Shown here one piece after another: positions 1-6,563 of a stretch of DNA of 12,379 bases. Made by a program: the position numbers and the translations under genes. Below the pieces are notes generated by a model, which searched no databases, had not been told where the DNA came from, and saw only the letters and a list, made by a program, of their open reading frames with translations. Source of the stretch: Chloroflexota bacterium (lineage in GTDB: Bacteria; Chloroflexota; FW602-bin22; JACPRP01); NCBI GenBank assembly GCA_016210495.1, contig JACQUC010000262.1:1-12379 (forward strand), read 5' to 3'. The stretch's first letter is position 1. Every line of letters begins with the position of its first letter.

Positions 1-211
1 GAGCTACCCCGTCCACAGAGACTGCAACGCCTTCCTTAGTGTAGACTCTGGGAGTTTCCACCGTGAGCGTCATTACCTCCAAGGACAGTCGCTGTACCTG
101 ATGAATCATAGGAAACGCAAACAGCCTACCTCCTACAATCACCTTCGGCTGCTTCCCTCCACCCGATCGGATCAGAGCCATGTTTGGACCTGTAGTATAA
201 ATGCCCGCCAT
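1..211 (-). CDS. Flotillin-family (SPFH/Band 7) protein, 5' part only
   Basis: The minus strand opens with ATG at 211-209 and stays open to the window edge, giving the first 70 codons. The translation begins MAGIYTTGPNMALIRSGGGK, continues through VIVGGRLFAFP and QRLSLEVMTLTVETP, and reaches TKEGVAVSVDGVA. This is the start of the flotillin SPFH domain (GPNEAL-RSGG, RLSLE-MTL, EGVA-V-G-A blocks). A GGAGG at 222-218 lies 6 nt before the ATG, and no other start fits better. Flotillins are membrane-associated scaffolds that assemble into oligomers organising lipid and protein domains; they commonly pair with NfeD proteins, as here. There is no N-terminal transmembrane segment before the SPFH domain, so membrane attachment probably uses hydrophobic or acylated patches, as in eukaryotic-type flotillins. 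The gene follows nfeD by 88 bp with no clear terminator and is probably cotranscribed with it. The C-terminal coiled-coil part lies outside the window. Confidence 0.85.
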   Translation of the reverse strand, partial: MAGIYTTGPNMALIRSGGGKQPKVIVGGRLFAFPMIHQVQRLSLEVMTLTVETPRVYTKEGVAVSVDGVA

Positions 212-299
212 TATTCGCCTCCATTCAAAATGCTGTGGCCGGAGTCTGGAGAAGGCCAGTCTAACTCAGCCTCCCCAATCCTGGGGCCGCCGAACCTCT

Positions 300-1703
300 C
301 TACCGTCCTTGAGATCGTAGTCGCCCAAAGAATCTGTGCAAAACTGATGGCTTTTCCACCTCGCTTTCCGGCGACGCCCTGGCTACCTTTAGGATATCCC
401 CGTAAACTCCAAGTACCGTCACCTCAACTCCTTTTTCAACACGCTCGCCAGGCCGAACTGCAGCCGTCCACTCCTCATCACCTAGCCGAATCATGCCCGA
501 TGGCTGCAAATCCACCACGACTATCCCGGTTCGCCCTACAAGTGCCGCTTTTGAGCCTAAAACATATCCGTATGCGGACCCTGTCGCCCTTGCGAAATAC
601 AGAACCAGAATTGTAGCGACAACCAGGGTTCCTCCCACAAAACCTATGAGCCACCCACTTACCCGTACGGTCGCTCCAGGGAACACCGGCGTGTCAAAGT
701 AGTTGCCGAAAAGAAGGAAGGCACCAAGGACGAAGCAGATTGCGCTTCCGAGTCCGAATATGCCCCATCCAGGTGCTTGCAGTTCGACAAAGAACAGGAT
801 CATCGAAAGCACGATCAGCCCGACTGCTACCCAGTTTACAGGTAGATTCCCCAAACCCAGAAGGCCCAATGAAAATGCAATAGCTCCCACTACGCCCGGT
901 CCGATAAAGCCAGGCGACCACATCTCCACAATGATCGCCAGCCCTCCAAAGAGCAGAAGCACAACCGCCAAGGTCGGATTGGCTATCACGCTGAGAAATC
1001 GCTCCAGGAGCGTCATGCCAATCTCACTGGTGCGGGCATCGCGGGTTTGCAGAGTAACACGACCTATCGCGGTTTCCGCCGTACGGCCGTCAAGCTGAAC
1101 TAGCATATCTTCCATGTCGCGAGCGATGAAATCAACTACGTTTCTCTCGACCGCCTCACGAGCCGAATATGAACTGGCCGCCGTTATGGTTTCCTCCAAA
1201 GCCGTGGCGTTCCTGCTTCTCTGCTCAGCAATGCTTCTTATGAAGGCAAGCGTGTCCTCAACGACCTTCTTCGATAAGGTTGCTGGCAGGTCTTCCCCTC
1301 CCGAGCCAACCGGCGATGCTGCCCCAATATTTGTTCCGGGGGCCATGACGGCAAAATTGGCAGCCGCAGTAACAAAAACCCCTGCCGATGCGGCTCGCGC
1401 CCCCGGCGGCGACACGTAGACTGCTACGGGGATTTCGGAGCTCAGAATGGCCTCCACCATATCGCGCGTGGAGCTCAGCAGGCCGCCTGGGGTGTCGAGC
1501 CTGATAATAGCCAACTGAGCGCCGCTGGACGCCGCCACATCAAGGCCTCTTCTGAGGTAGCGAGCGCTGATTGGCTCTATATCGCTGTCCAAAGTTATCA
1601 CGGCCACGTGGCCACCTCCGGCGAGAGCGGGCGAGAGGTTGGACAGGATGAACAGCAACCCGACTCCAAACCCAAGAACCAGATATTGCAGTCTTCGCCT
1701 CAT
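300..1703 (-). CDS. nfeD: NfeD-family membrane-bound serine protease (ClpP class)
   Basis: 467 aa, full-length for the long NfeD class. Residues 1-28 are a signal peptide ending SPALA. Residues about 32-230 form a ClpP/crotonase-like protease domain with DTPGG at 70-74, the nucleophile in RAASAG (Ser106) and a candidate general base Lys146 in KKVVED. This is the Ser/Lys dyad arrangement of the archaeal homologue PH1510. About four to six hydrophobic segments follow (roughly 240-370). A soluble NfeD (OB-fold-like) domain closes the protein, with LVGRTGIVVVDLQPSG and the GVYGDILKV end. The protease domain is predicted to lie outside the membrane and to cut hydrophobic C-terminal segments of partners such as stomatins or flotillins. 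The next gene is flotillin, the classic partner. The start is supported by GAGG 6 nt upstream. It overlaps by ATGA the end of a vestigial frame (1816-1700). The gene sits under a c-di-AMP riboswitch. Confidence 0.93.
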   Translation of the reverse strand: MRRRLQYLVLGFGVGLLFILSNLSPALAGGGHVAVITLDSDIEPISARYLRRGLDVAASSGAQLAIIRLDTPGGLLSSTRDMVEAILSSEIPVAVYVSPPGARAASAGVFVTAAANFAVMAPGTNIGAASPVGSGGEDLPATLSKKVVEDTLAFIRSIAEQRSRNATALEETITAASSYSAREAVERNVVDFIARDMEDMLVQLDGRTAETAIGRVTLQTRDARTSEIGMTLLERFLSVIANPTLAVVLLLFGGLAIIVEMWSPGFIGPGVVGAIAFSLGLLGLGNLPVNWVAVGLIVLSMILFFVELQAPGWGIFGLGSAICFVLGAFLLFGNYFDTPVFPGATVRVSGWLIGFVGGTLVVATILVLYFARATGSAYGYVLGSKAALVGRTGIVVVDLQPSGMIRLGDEEWTAAVRPGERVEKGVEVTVLGVYGDILKVARASPESEVEKPSVLHRFFGRLRSQGR

Positions 1704-1816
1704 GGCAAACCTCGAAAGAGAAGGTGCCGATAGCCCCGCGTGATGCCAGTACCCCTTTTCGCCGACCCAGTTGCCAATCTAGTGCCGTTCCCCGCAGCCA
1801 GGACTACCGCTTTTAT
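1700..1816 (-). pseudogene. Remnant of a nucleotidyltransferase 5' end (ATG replaced by ATA)
   Basis: The minus strand has an ideal AGGAGG (1826-1821), a 4-nt gap, then ATA AAA GCG, reading IKAVVLAAGNGTRLATGSAK over the first 20 codons. KAVVLAAGxGTRL is the N-terminal nucleotide-binding signature of the sugar-phosphate nucleotidyltransferase superfamily (GlmU, RmlA, GalU, MobA types), which normally begins Met-Lys-Ala at exactly this place. The rest of the family is missing: after about 20 residues similarity stops, and the frame ends at TGA 1702-1700, overlapping the nfeD ATG. The simplest reading is the surviving start of a gene largely deleted, with the Met codon mutated to ATA. The same frame can also be read from an ATG at 1894 within the terminator stem, but that has no good ribosome site. 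It could still be translated weakly and couple to nfeD. A functional micro-ORF is possible but less likely. Confidence 0.5.
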
Positions 1817-1841
1817 GCTGCCTCCTTCTAGCAATGGTTTT

Positions 1842-1887
1842 GGACAACAATAAGAGGAGCAAGAGGACAAAGCCTCTCGCTCCCCTT
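1842..1887 (-). terminator. Terminator-like hairpin of the riboswitch expression platform
   Basis: On the minus transcript AAGGGGAGCGAGAGG (1887-1873) pairs with CCUCUUGCUCCUCUU (1866-1852) around a CUUUGU loop. That is 15 consecutive pairs, including two G-U. The hairpin is followed by a moderately U-rich AUUGUUGU tract (1851-1844). It lies about 30 nt after the riboswitch core and before nfeD, as expected for an OFF switch. AAGAGG at 1911-1906, just after the aptamer, could pair with CCUCUU of the 3' arm as an anti-terminator. The U tract is interrupted, so termination may be partial. Confidence 0.6.
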
Positions 1888-1909
1888 CGCCCATTTCCGA
1901 GGCAGCCTC

Positions 1910-2040
1910 TTCTTTACACGCCTACGAGGTTAGCTGACGGGTTCGGCAAGAAGAAGTTCGCCTATCCTTCCGATGAAGGAATTCACCCCAAGAACTGGTT
2001 CCCCCGCTCCTCTTTTAAGGATTTGGCTCGGTCTCGTATG
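1910..2040 (-). promoter_or_regulatory. Cyclic-di-AMP riboswitch (ydaO/yuaA type)
   Basis: The minus transcript contains, in order and with family-like spacing, the conserved blocks of the ydaO/yuaA riboswitch. These are CCGAGCCAAA near the 5' end, GGGGGAACC (2005-1997), UUGGGGUGAAUUCC (1991-1978), and the hallmark GUCAGCUAACCUCGUAGGCG (1938-1919). Between them are a UCCUUC-AUCG-GAAGGA hairpin (6 bp) and a GGCGA/UUGCC arm, which fit the variable stems. This RNA class binds c-di-AMP and usually turns genes off, acting on cell-wall hydrolases and on potassium or osmolyte transport. Here a promoter lies just upstream and a terminator-like hairpin just downstream, then nfeD and flotillin. Recognition is from memory of the consensus; exact ends are approximate. 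Confidence is high because the sequence blocks are long and ordered. Confidence 0.9.
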
Positions 2041-2054
2041 TTGTTGTCGCAGAC

Positions 2055-2083
2055 ACTTTAGCCTAGAAGCCAAACTTTGTCAA
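2055..2083 (-). promoter_or_regulatory. Sigma-70 promoter of the riboswitch-nfeD operon
   Basis: The minus strand has a perfect TTGACA (2083-2078), a 17-bp spacer, and TAAAGT (2060-2055), a 4/6 match to TATAAT. Transcription would start near 2048, a few bases before the 5' side of the c-di-AMP aptamer. That placement makes it the obvious promoter for the riboswitch transcript. Confidence 0.75.
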
Positions 2084-2258
2084 CTGATTGATCTGAGATT
2101 CGTCACCCATGAGCAACGGTCATAGGTGCGTGCCCTGCCCCGGCCCAGCAGGCAAAGCGGCTGAAGTCCCCGCCCGGCGACGTGTGGGCGTACCCGCAGC
2201 CATCTGGGACAACCTGGTCGCTGGCGGCGAGCTTGTGGGGGCGGGCCGGCTGACGAGG
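2084..2258. other. GC-rich stretch after rpoD, no clear gene
   Basis: This part of the 555-bp gap is clearly richer in G and C than the riboswitch region beside it. I see no tRNA, known small RNA or U-tract terminator. On the minus strand the rpoD frame stays open for 51 codons after the rpoD TAG until TGA at 2105-2103. A 7-bp hairpin CCUAUGA-CCGUUGC-UCAUGGG occupies 2126-2106, and CCCGCCC near the rpoD stop is complementary to GGGCGGG about 70 nt further on. It may be a structured rpoD 3' UTR. Confidence 0.35.
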
Positions 2259-3560
2259 CTATTCCAAATAATCCTTCAGCTTCTTGCTGCGGCTGGGGTG
2301 GCGGAGCTTGCGGAGGGCCTTGGCTTCGATCTGCCGGATGCGCTCGCGGGTGACACCGAACTCCTTGCCCACTTCCTCCAGCGTCCGGCTGCGGCCATCG
2401 TCGAGGCCGAAGCGGAGCTGCAGCACGCGGCGCTCGCGGTGGCTCAGCGAGTCGAGCACATCCTCGACCTGCTCCTTGAGCAACTGGTGGGAGGCAGCCT
2501 CCGCCGGGGGCAAGGTCCCTTGATCCTCGATGAAGTCACCCAGGTGGCTGTCCTCCTCTTCGCCGATGGGCGTTTCGAGGGAAACGGGCTCCTGGGAAAC
2601 CTTGATGATCTCGCGGACTTTTTCGGGGGAGATTTGCATCTCGTCGCCGATTTCTTCCGAAGTGGGCTCACGGCCTAGCTCCTGAAGAAGCCGGCGAGAG
2701 ACCCTGATGAGCTTGTTGATGGTCTCTACCATGTGGACGGGGATGCGGATGGTGCGCGCCTGATCGGCGATGGCGCGCGTGATCGCCTGGCGGATCCACC
2801 AGGTGGCATAAGTGCTGAACTTGTAGCCTTTGCGATAGTCGAACTTCTCTACGGCACGAATGAGGCCGATGTTTCCTTCCTGGATAAGGTCCAGGAGCGA
2901 CATGCCGCGGCCGATGTACTTCTTGGCTACGCTCACGACAAGACGCAGGTTTGCTTCGGTGAGACGCTGGCGGGCCAACTCGCCCTTTATCACTTCCTGC
3001 TCGATCTTGGCCCGCTCCTCGGGGGACAGCCTGCGCTGAGAGAGCCGGTAAGCCGACGCCATGCCCCTCTCCATCATCATGGCGAGTTGTACCTCCTCGG
3101 TGGCCGATAGCAGGCTCACGCGGCCAATCTCGCGGAGGTACATCCTGACGGGATCGTCGATGCCATCGTGTTCGAACTCGACGATGGGCTCGATCTCGAT
3201 CTCGGGCTCCTCGCCCTCGACGATCTTGGGCTCGTCGTCTTCCCAGCCGTCAGCGGGCAAGTCGCCATCGACGACTTCGACGTCGGCGGCGATGAGTATG
3301 TCTTCAACCGCATCGAGGTTGAGCTCAGGGTTGGGGAGGACGTCGAGTATGTCCTCCGGCGTGAAAAAACCTTGGTCCTTGCCTTTGCAGACCAGCTCCG
3401 CGCTGCTTTCACAGAGGCCACCCTCTTCTTCGGAGTGGCCGTTGTCTTCCTCAGCTACGGCAAGCTCCTGGTCCACGGCGACATCCACCACCGGAGCCAA
3501 GCGCGCGATCTTCTCCCGCTTCTCTGCGTCCTGGTACTCAGTTCCTCTATCGATTGCCAT
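2259..3560 (-). CDS. rpoD: Primary RNA polymerase sigma factor (sigma-70 group 1)
   Basis: Numbering here starts at the first of two adjacent ATGs (3563), giving 434 aa. Residues 1-135 are a divergent, strongly acidic leader with a region 1.1-like helix set ([20 protein letters not shown]). Region 1.2 is [13 protein letters not shown] (137-149). Region 2 spans about 203-284 with [31 protein letters not shown] and [18 protein letters not shown], the -10 recognition and melting part. Region 3 follows with HMVETINKL and region 4 is 365-430 with the helix-turn-helix [20 protein letters not shown] that reads -35. It ends in the usual LKDYLE. All core regions are intact, so it directs housekeeping transcription. 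AGGAGG lies 1 nt before the first ATG and 4 nt before the second (3560), so the second is chosen. It follows dnaG by about 75 bp, the dnaG-rpoD arrangement seen in many bacteria. Confidence 0.97.
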
Positions 3561-3638
3561 CATTCCTCCTCACCAGCCAAGAGGGTCAACCCCACCACCC
3601 CACCGCTGATTGCAAGATTACCATAGGCGACATCTACC

Positions 3639-5573
3639 TTACCTCCATACCGAGGCCCGCGTGTCGCCGTGCTCAAAAGGCTCGAGCTCAGACCTTAGTT
3701 GCTCTATTTGCTCGATGAACTGCCGAGAGCCTTCCAGGTCGGACTCGTTTGCCGCCTGATGTGAAAGGTACTCTAACTGGCGGATGCGCTCTCTGAGATT
3801 CCTACGTCGCAGCTCGCGGAGGCACTTTTCTGCCTGGCGCTGTAGCTCGGCGTCGACTACTGAAGGGCCCTGCCGAGCTCGATCCAGCAGGTCGCCGACG
3901 AAGTCCTGAAGCGCGGGATCGAGGGTCTCGGCGAAGCGATCGAGATCGAATGGCTCAGCGCTGCCAACAGCATCCCGAAGGGCGGAGAACACCAGGCACA
4001 CTCTGGAGTCCTGCACTTCGTTGAGCTCGATCTGATAGACGGTGTCCGCAAGCTCGGGATTGCTCAATACCAAGGACAGATAATACGCCTCCAGCGAGAG
4101 CGGTGGCCTCTGGCGGGCACCCTCCTGTTTGGAGACGGCACCGCCGGATGCCTGGGCGCCTCCCTCGCCAGGGTGCGGGGTCCCGGGGCCTTCCCTATTT
4201 CTCGTGGATAGCGAAGGAAGGGCGGGCCCTTTGAGACGTACTCTGGCCAGGGATTCGGCCAATGTGCGCTCGTTAACCTGTACCAGGTGCGCGAGCTTCT
4301 GCAGATAGTGAGCTTGCTCCACCTTATCAGGCAGCTCCTTGATCACAGGAAGCAGTTGGTCCACGGCCGAAGACTTGTCTTTGGCCGACGTTAGATCGAG
4401 TGCCGACGTCACTGTGCTGAAGTAGTAATCGACGATGGGCAACGCCCTGTCCAGAAGCCACTGCCATCGAGCGGGATCCTCGCGAATCACCTCATCCGGA
4501 TCCTTGCCCCGTGGCAAGGTAATGATGCGGATATCGGCGTCCAACTTGTACTCGTAGTGAATCAAGCCTCGCCAGGTGGGCACGGGCACGACTCTCTTGT
4601 CGAAGACCTCCCTGGCCACATCGAGTCCGCGCAAGGTGGCTTCGTCGCCGGCCTTGTCGGGGTCGAGGGCCAGAATCAGGTGTTTCGTAAGCTTCTTCAG
4701 TGTCGCCACCTGGCGCTCGGTCAGGGCGGTCCCGAGGGAAGCCACCACTTTTGTCATACCACATTGATGGGAGTGCAAAACGTCGACGTAGCCTTCGACG
4801 ATGACGGCGCTATCGGCTTCGCGCATGGCCCGTGCCGCTCTGTCTATGCCATATAGCGAGCTGCTCTTGTCGAAGATCGGGGTCTGTGGCGAGTTCAGGT
4901 ACTTTGGCTGGGAGCTGTCCAGGGCGCGAGCGCCGAAGCCGGTGACGTTGCCGCGAATGTCTCTGATGGGAAACATCAATCGCCCACGGAAGCGGTCGTA
5001 GTGATCGCCTCCCTCCTTTTGAACGACGAGGCCGGCATCGAGCAGCTCCTTGGACTCGAATGCCTTGCCGCTCAGATACTGGCCGAGCGATTGCCAGCTA
5101 TCTGGCGCGTAGCCGAGCTGGAAGGCCTCGACGGTGTCGCCGTTGATCCCACGCTTCGCCAGGTAGGATCTGGCTACCTCGGCCGCTTCGGAGCGCATCA
5201 GGACGTGATGGAAAAACTGCGCAGCGGCGGCGTTGATCTCACGCAGGCGCTCGCGCCGCCGATCCTCGACGACATCGGCACGGCGCTCGGGCAGAGCCAC
5301 GCCCGCCTTATCGGCAAGCAACTTGAGGGCGTCGCCGAAGGCCAGGTTTTGCGTTTTCATTATGAAAGTGAACAGGTCGCCGTTGGAGTCACAGCCGAAG
5401 CAATGGTAGTTGCCCTTGTCCGGGTACACTACAAATGAGGGAGTCTTTTCGCCGTGGAACGGGCAAAGACCCTTGAAGTTGCGCCCGGCCTTCTTCAGCG
5501 CGACGTATGGAGAGATGACGTCGACTATGCTCAATCGGTCTTTGATTTCGTCGACGACGCCGCCGACTGGCAT
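3639..5573 (-). CDS. dnaG: DNA primase
   Basis: 644 aa, full-length. It synthesises RNA primers for DNA replication at the fork. The N-terminal zinc-binding domain has C37, H40, C58 and C61 (CPFH and HCFGC). The catalytic core includes the RFRGRLMFPIRD block (194-205). The TOPRIM residues are in place: E260 in VIVEGYVD, D304/D306 in LALDPDKAG, and KDPDE at 357-361, so it should be active. After the DPDKAG block a segment at about 325-345 (VVPVPTWRGLIHYEYKLDAD) looks extra compared with E. coli DnaG. A Gly/Pro-rich linker (about 450-490) precedes the C-terminal helicase-interaction region, which ends in charged helices. The start has an ideal AGGAGG 8 nt upstream, and this site overlaps the TAG of the protease gene before it, so the two are probably translationally coupled. 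Confidence 0.97.
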   Translation of the reverse strand: MPVGGVVDEIKDRLSIVDVISPYVALKKAGRNFKGLCPFHGEKTPSFVVYPDKGNYHCFGCDSNGDLFTFIMKTQNLAFGDALKLLADKAGVALPERRADVVEDRRRERLREINAAAAQFFHHVLMRSEAAEVARSYLAKRGINGDTVEAFQLGYAPDSWQSLGQYLSGKAFESKELLDAGLVVQKEGGDHYDRFRGRLMFPIRDIRGNVTGFGARALDSSQPKYLNSPQTPIFDKSSSLYGIDRAARAMREADSAVIVEGYVDVLHSHQCGMTKVVASLGTALTERQVATLKKLTKHLILALDPDKAGDEATLRGLDVAREVFDKRVVPVPTWRGLIHYEYKLDADIRIITLPRGKDPDEVIREDPARWQWLLDRALPIVDYYFSTVTSALDLTSAKDKSSAVDQLLPVIKELPDKVEQAHYLQKLAHLVQVNERTLAESLARVRLKGPALPSLSTRNREGPGTPHPGEGGAQASGGAVSKQEGARQRPPLSLEAYYLSLVLSNPELADTVYQIELNEVQDSRVCLVFSALRDAVGSAEPFDLDRFAETLDPALQDFVGDLLDRARQGPSVVDAELQRQAEKCLRELRRRNLRERIRQLEYLSHQAANESDLEGSRQFIEQIEQLRSELEPFEHGDTRASVWR

Positions 5574-5585
5574 CGAGACTTCCTC

Positions 5586-6563
5586 CTATACCTGGCCGAA
5601 ATACAGGGCGGTGAAAGCCACCGAGTTGTTCATGGCGTGGGCGATCATTGTCGGAACGACGCTGTTGTTTAGCCGATATATATGGGCAAAAGTAAGGCCG
5701 ATGGCAAATATGGGTACTACGCTGGGAGGCGAGTACAAATGCGCCAGAGCAAACACCAGTGAGCTAAAAAGGTATGCCTGCCAGACACCCTTTTTCGCCA
5801 GGTAGGCTCTAAAGACGTAACCGCGAAAAAAGGATTCCTCGACGAAACCGGCCAATGCCCCGCCCGCGAGCAGCAGAAGAATGAACTGTAGCGTCGAAGC
5901 CTGCTTGATGGAAGCGAATTGCTGCATTTGGGTCTGCTCGATTCCCAGTTGGCGCAACACGAGCTCGATGACGACGACAATTACGAACACGGCGAAACCG
6001 CCGCCAATTCCCGCTAATATGCGTCGCCCAAGCCTCTGCGAGGTAATTCCCATGTCGCGCCACGTTATCACGCCGGGACGGATAATGCGCAGCCAAAGCA
6101 CGAGGAGCAGCGCGATCTCGACGGTGACGACCGAAACCAGGATGACAACCGGGCTCGGAATCGCGCTCACAGAACCGGTGGGACTTGTCACCTGGACCGT
6201 CAGAGCGTTCCCCGTGACGGCTGAGTACAACAGGGCGTAGGCGCCTTGAAACACAAGTGAGGCGACGATGGCCAGCGCAAGACAGGCGAAGACGGTGCGA
6301 TGGCTGCCGTAGTCCTGCTGCGCCCGCTCCCGCGACGATCCGGGCACGACCACGTAGATGACGAGTCCGGCGACTAGGATCAGCGCCGCCAGGACGGACA
6401 GCACGATGGCAAGGGCAAGCCCTATTGCTACCAGGGTATCGGGCTGCTGGCCGATGGGAGTGGAACGATAGAGAAGGAACGCGATGATGCCGCTGGGCAC
6501 GCCCAACGCGATCCCGATCAGTATCAGCCAGCCGCCCAGCGAAACGAGTCTAGACACCGTCAT
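5586..6563 (-). CDS. CPBP-family intramembrane glutamic endopeptidase (ABI/CAAX-like)
   Basis: 325 aa with about eight hydrophobic segments along its length. The C-terminal third is the CPBP (Rce1/ABI) domain with its three motifs: EESFFR at 242-247 (catalytic Glu pair and Arg), FALAH at 271-275, and HAMNN at 309-313. These polar residues sit within membrane helices and form the proteolytic site in the Rce1 family. The substrate cannot be told from the sequence; bacterial members act in bacteriocin immunity, protein export or membrane protein processing. It lies between dgt and dnaG. Its likely ribosome site AAGGA overlaps the dgt stop TAA (6576-6574), and its own stop overlaps the dnaG ribosome site, so it is embedded in the replication operon. 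Why a membrane protease sits there is unknown. The N-terminal part (1-160) is less conserved and I do not recognise it. Confidence 0.88.
   Translation of the reverse strand: MTVSRLVSLGGWLILIGIALGVPSGIIAFLLYRSTPIGQQPDTLVAIGLALAIVLSVLAALILVAGLVIYVVVPGSSRERAQQDYGSHRTVFACLALAIVASLVFQGAYALLYSAVTGNALTVQVTSPTGSVSAIPSPVVILVSVVTVEIALLLVLWLRIIRPGVITWRDMGITSQRLGRRILAGIGGGFAVFVIVVVIELVLRQLGIEQTQMQQFASIKQASTLQFILLLLAGGALAGFVEESFFRGYVFRAYLAKKGVWQAYLFSSLVFALAHLYSPPSVVPIFAIGLTFAHIYRLNNSVVPTMIAHAMNNSVAFTALYFGQV

Follow-up and report, generated by a model that had tools for sequence, protein, structure and literature searches.

A c-di-AMP riboswitch aptamer in front of an NfeD-flotillin gene pair in a Chloroflexota contig, with two marks of a recent junction

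Does a c-di-AMP riboswitch control a membrane protease and flotillin operon in a member of the Chloroflexota, and, if the two lie together, is their pairing an established one? The question arises from a 12,379-nucleotide stretch of DNA (contig JACQUC010000262.1, here called the window and analysed at its full length), in which all eight frames treated as genes lie on the minus strand, in the order glyS, ppdK, dgt, CPBP-like protease, dnaG, rpoD, aptamer, nfeD, floT. A preliminary description of the locus had placed a ydaO/yuaA aptamer between a consensus-like promoter and nfeD, and had proposed an NfeD-flotillin operon under c-di-AMP that might recur in related genomes. The features on which the analysis turned are collected in Table 1.

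Table 1. Features of the window between rpoD and floT, in the order in which they are read.
Feature	Position	Strand	Evidence or remark
rpoD (primary sigma factor), preceding the switch	2259..3563	-	Sigma-70 regions 1.1-4; RpoD_Cterm over cut-off
Promoter-like site, TTGACA-17-TAAAGT, ending 16 nt before the aptamer	2055..2083	-	Consensus scan, 10 of 12 matches
c-di-AMP (ydaO/yuaA) riboswitch aptamer, RF00379	1904..2038	-	Rfam covariance match
Hairpin of terminator-like form with 15 pairs and a poor T tail, ATTGTTGTCC; may serve as expression platform	1852..1887	-	Terminator scan
Open frame of 64 codons through the hairpin, SD-like AGAAGGAGG and fragment KAVVLAAGNGTRL	1700..1894	-	Frame list; TGA overlaps the nfeD ATG
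nfeD, NfeD1b membrane serine protease, intact, 467 aa	300..1703	-	NfeD1b_N, NfeD_membrane and NfeD C-terminal over Pfam cut-offs
floT (flotillin, SPFH), truncated after 70 aa at the window end	2..211	-	Band_7; FloT model partial, below cut-off

The identity of the aptamer was evaluated with the Rfam covariance model, as the preliminary description had proposed, and the outcome was decisive. RF00379 matched with 101.7 bits (gathering score 38) and an E value of 9.9e-24 over model positions 1-134 of 134, with a single pair flagged as non-standard; it was the sole Rfam match in the window (both strands, E up to 1). The presence of a ydaO/yuaA aptamer between the promoter-like site and nfeD was thereby borne out, and a chance aptamer was rejected given this E value over the whole model. 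A second covariance model (R1), built in this analysis, scored the window aptamer at 111.7 bits, the window being one of its 34 training rows. In all 34 aligned aptamers the 3' purine strand can pair with an internal pyrimidine tract, forming 5-10 pairs with a mean of 7.4; when partners were swapped among the 34 sequences the mean was 6.5 pairs, and the observed mean was reached in 0 of 500 rounds. The window aptamer forms 9 of these pairs (3' strand AAGAAGAGG with internal CUUCUUCUU), a number not above its pairing with the strands of other sequences (up to 11). By sequence and structure model the riboswitch is real and an ordinary member of its class, and its binding of c-di-AMP is predicted from this membership.

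The consensus-like promoter of the preliminary description is present upstream of the aptamer, but taken alone it is weak, because the shuffled region yields 0.8 such sites on average. It was the sole promoter-like site found by a sigma-70-like scan of window positions 1-3500, and the switch likely uses it (2083-2055). Only one other genome (G189, locus L178) was found to have an aptamer immediately behind rpoD, again preceded by a promoter-like site. There the aptamer (4239-4374) directly follows rpoD, as in the window, and a TTGACA-17-TAAATT site, read by eye, ends 7 nt before it. Whereas the two loci have the aptamer and promoter-like site straight after rpoD in common, the gene directly behind the aptamer of L178 encodes a family-2 glycosyltransferase, and no nfeD lies in its 7.8 kb. 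The placement beside rpoD is therefore credible, and the targets behind it change. Riboswitch control of rpoD itself was excluded, as the aptamer is positioned after rpoD on the same strand.

To place the window among its relatives, 30 pre-selected genomes were compared with its DnaG and PPDK. Nearest among these by PPDK and gene order was G028, a genome drawn from the class of G004 (Tepidiformaceae; locus L004), which has the order ppdK-dgt-dnaG-rpoD with identities to the window of 69, 57, 48 and 63%; by DnaG, G048 scored slightly above G028, and by RpoD, G042 scored highest. A search for nearer kin in the family and in the order of G028 gave one genome each. The CPBP-like intramembrane protease gene of the window (5586-6563, minus strand), which lies between dgt and dnaG, was assigned from matches below curated cut-offs; only 41 bases separate the dgt and dnaG matches of G028 (L299). 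Of the 17 related genomes examined for the c-di-AMP cyclase (DAC), 13 yielded genes for it, among them G028, G189 and G001; none was found in the remaining four (G025, G050, G105 and G390). Most of the named relatives are metagenome-assembled genomes, and absences in them are therefore weak.

We then asked from both sides whether the pairing is conserved. Among the matches listed, NfeD was found near the aptamer in 0 of 252 other RF00379 contexts, a sample in which many contexts cover only 1.5 kb per side and some stop early at a contig end. Neither tblastn (E 1e-4) nor a profile of an NfeD alignment (A1; E 1e-3) detected NfeD in the 157 class contexts, which comprise 37 loci, 119 matches located in further loci, and L178, one contig-end match having been dropped. 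The same was true of 69 further loci, which take in some but not all of the matches listed for the phylum of G028 and of which four (L309, L310, L335 and L336) had already been counted with the 157, and of 30 more loci among the matches listed in a search of the phylum of G750, where the profile found nfeD in 6 of 6 positive controls. From the opposite side, model R1 revealed an aptamer at 0 of 110 nfeD loci (103 distinct places), a sample of 80 contig loci and 30 class loci, 7 of the latter duplicating the former, that has fewer than 500 bases before the matched part in 4 loci and does not include the NfeD relatives of 60-68% identity. A single R1 match in L041 (13.5 bits, E 0.59) was taken as noise, and Rfam's own model at the gathering score found no aptamer in L001-L013. 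Of the operon proposed in the preliminary description, the arrangement itself stood, with the aptamer before an intact nfeD and the start of floT. Its standing as an established regulon did not, and the expectation that the aptamer would be kept upstream of nfeD and flotillin in relatives failed in those sampled. Within this sample a conserved nfeD regulon was rejected: among the loci examined, the pairing was seen in the window alone.

RF00379 occurred in at least 127 of the 294 genomes sampled from the class to which G004 belongs, in 63 of 400 from the phylum of G028 and in at least 78 of 396 from the phylum of G750, an Actinomycetes genome, the larger searches having used stricter filters by which weak matches were lost. 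To survey the genes behind these switches, every long open frame downstream, including some that are surely not genes, was entered into a clustering, and representatives from a number of the most frequent clusters were compared with Pfam. One cluster of 11 contexts contained trehalose-6-phosphate-synthase-type glycosyltransferases (GT20; 4 scanned, 4 matched), an osmolyte-making rather than osmolyte-uptake target; its contexts (L094, L182, L185, L274 and 7 further) are among the commonest behind the class switches. Family-2 glycosyltransferases formed a cluster of 7 that includes L178, and other frames behind switches were of VTT, PIN-TRAM, BrkB, MFS, radical-SAM and small zinc-ribbon-like type. 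In G028, two of four switches (C59 and C144) precede GT20 frames, and the aptamer of C235 (L206) precedes MscS-type channel and alpha-amylase/CBM48 frames. At three loci (L220, L188 and L184) at least two c-di-AMP aptamers lie within a few kilobases. In outline, this picture of class targets fits the osmotic roles described for ydaO targets in the available parts of two reports (PMC3766115; PMC10117811). The window shares with the ydaO/yuaA class the full-length covariance match; it differs in the gene behind it, NfeD-flotillin, whereas the available parts of the same reports name transporters, for potassium and for amino acids, and cell-wall enzymes as targets.

The leader between aptamer and nfeD is 200 nt long and holds, beyond what the preliminary description had recorded, a terminator-like hairpin, a strong SD-like sequence and apparent N-terminal codons of a nucleotidyltransferase. 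The hairpin comes first, AGAAGGAGG follows, and then a frame reading KAVVLAAGNGTRLATGSAK, which we take to be an N-terminal signature of nucleotidyltransferases. When the spacer was shuffled 100,000 times by mononucleotides, this pattern arose in 0 cases, and it was present 8 times in 2.17 Mb of fetched loci (six frames), all 8 being read by eye as genuine nucleotidyltransferases and one (L201) confirmed as IspD by Pfam, figures that are somewhat overstated because the pattern was chosen after the sequence had been seen. The best Pfam match of the fragment was to IspD positions 2-21 (12.5 bits, E 0.13, below cut-off); its homology ends after 13-20 residues, and the 64-codon frame as a whole had no Pfam match. 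The expected start-codon position of the fragment reads ATA, with an in-frame ATG further up at 1894. Judged by its sequence, the stretch 1700-1894 is probably the remnant of the start of a nucleotidyltransferase gene that would have been the earlier target of the switch. IspD-like frames lie downstream of the aptamer in 4 of the 157 class contexts, 0.85-0.96 kb away and in no case first in line, so that a pairing of switch and nucleotidyltransferase is not established; in these four (L201, L205, L228 and L250) the frame runs in the same direction as the aptamer. The leader frame was also considered as a conserved leader peptide, and tblastn with 1894-1700 matched nothing in the 157 class contexts and 69 further loci, which is a weak test for so short a query.

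As to how such a leader might act, the number of terminator-like sites in the region (4) was close to that expected from shuffles (3.6), and the predicted fold of positions 1895-1845 has an energy of -26.8 kcal/mol. Across the SD-like sequence, GCUGCCUC can pair with GAGGCAGC. A clean switching pair or mechanism is not demonstrated by these predictions, because the core of the SD-like sequence is paired in the predicted fold both with and without the aptamer, and the T tail of the hairpin is weak. The ydaO elements are generally off-switches. For the ydaO-like switch of Streptomyces rpfA, the available part of one report describes premature transcription termination upon binding of c-di-AMP (PMC10117811). 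By analogy, we infer an OFF switch acting on the leader, in which high c-di-AMP would lower expression of the downstream genes, as in characterised ydaO switches, either via the hairpin (1887-1852) or by masking of the SD-like sequence. Under such control nfeD would be expressed from this leader, perhaps by coupling to the 64-codon frame, the TGA of which overlaps the nfeD ATG in a way predicted to allow translational coupling.

Residues 37-238 of the window NfeD align with chain 2deo of PH1510-N, and Ser106 and Lys146 stand opposite chain positions 83 and 124 (counted from the alignment); both residues, presumably the catalytic pair, are invariant in the 30-row alignment A1. An nfeD adjoining floT is common in the relatives. 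The window also has in common with NfeD1b-SPFH operons, as described in the available part of PMC2636767, a ClpP-class N-terminal protease, a membrane part, a C-terminal NfeD domain and a flotillin/SPFH gene directly downstream, while a riboswitch leader and a remnant of another gene start are added in the window. Joint lateral transfer of NfeD and SPFH genes is proposed in the same source.

Base composition sets the pair apart from its surroundings. GC3 was 0.58 for nfeD and 0.54 for floT, the latter resting on 70 codons, compared with 0.72-0.86 in the six neighbouring genes. In a fit over 77 nfeD genes that had over 2 kb of flanking sequence, GC3 tracked flank GC closely (sd 0.059), and the window nfeD, with an expected GC3 of 0.75, had a lower z (about -3) than any of the 77. 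Measured against the same trend, two fairly close relatives (49-50% identity) came near it, L007 with z -2.67 and L006 with z -2.51; as they deviate nearly as much, the low GC3 of nfeD is suggestive of transfer and not decisive. The window nfeD is 53-55% identical to those of L001 (G001), L002 and L004 (G004), versus 40% to its counterpart in G028. Two types of nfeD occur in many genomes (54% and 42% in G004, for example), so G028 may have lost one of them. The closest NfeD proteins, 60-68% identical, are metagenome entries, and no second contig carries this NfeD (P0001, present on the window's contig only). The nfeD-floT pair likely arrived from another lineage. The broken gene start and the unusual composition of nfeD and floT point towards either a recent pairing or an artefact of the contig, and away from an established regulon. 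The aptamer before nfeD-flotillin is real in this contig, and it carries these two marks of a recent junction.

The explanation we put forward, tentatively and at a little short of an even chance, is that a c-di-AMP switch already resident at this site was separated from an earlier target and now has a foreign nfeD-floT pair behind it. The switch would fire from its own promoter after rpoD and would once have controlled a nucleotidyltransferase gene, the first codons of which would remain in the leader; the nfeD-flotillin pair now placed there would have come from another lineage. A stricter version, in which the foreign pair landed, destroyed the earlier target and in one step brought membrane-domain organisation and proteolysis under c-di-AMP (riboswitch capture), is possible and somewhat doubtful. 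The preferred explanation is weakened by the brevity of the nucleotidyltransferase assignment, which covers about 13-20 residues and reaches no curated cut-off, and also because an assembly join of two organisms predicts the same shift in composition and the same odd junction. In such a chimeric contig, the rpoD-riboswitch end of one organism would have been joined to the nfeD-floT end of another, and there would be no pairing at all. The change in GC3 does coincide with the broken gene start, the pairing is absent from the other loci examined (among the matches listed), and this nfeD occurs on one contig only. However, the suspected join at about 1790-1705 would fall outside the aptamer, which as the conserved stretch should be the easiest place for crossover by a short-word assembler, and the leader frame is open up to a stop that overlaps the nfeD start, although this could arise by chance. 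We consider an assembly join improbable.

The closeness of the parts may also be taken at face value, with c-di-AMP directly controlling a native NfeD-flotillin operon that is shared by close relatives outside the collections. The aptamer, the promoter-like site and an intact nfeD stand in line with no complete gene between them, the c-di-AMP cyclase is common in relatives (13 of 17), the closest NfeD proteins (60-68%) are metagenome entries outside the loci examined, and the nfeD genes of two relatives are nearly as deviant in GC3 without a known join. The absence of conservation in the 110 nfeD loci and, among the matches listed, in the 252 riboswitch contexts, together with the fragment of another gene start in the leader and the unusual base composition of nfeD and floT, argues against such an operon and makes it unlikely. 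The switch might, on the other hand, be stranded, if transcription ended at the hairpin or if the dead frame alone were controlled, nfeD-floT using another promoter. A strong hairpin does lie between aptamer and nfeD, and the best SD-like sequence serves the broken frame, that of nfeD itself looking weak by eye; but the sole promoter-like site that the sigma-70-like scan found in positions 1-3500 precedes the aptamer, and we regard a stranded switch as very improbable.

A literature search, outside which subscription papers and the original target lists mostly lay, found no paper in which ydaO, the c-di-AMP riboswitch and NfeD all appear. Nor, with subscription papers again mostly outside its reach, did it find c-di-AMP, flotillin and NfeD together or, in the texts available in part, a statement tying c-di-AMP to flotillin membrane domains. 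The available part of PMC6193735 mentions c-di-AMP, riboswitch and NfeD apart from one another.

The census adds to the genes found behind c-di-AMP switches in this Chloroflexota class. Should the junction prove to be an assembly join, riboswitch-target pairs taken from single metagenome contigs would need a check of leader and composition. If the junction is real, the locus would offer a snapshot of regulon growth, in which a leader that senses a ligand has come together with a new operon, and flotillin membrane domains would have been wired to a second messenger for osmotic state.
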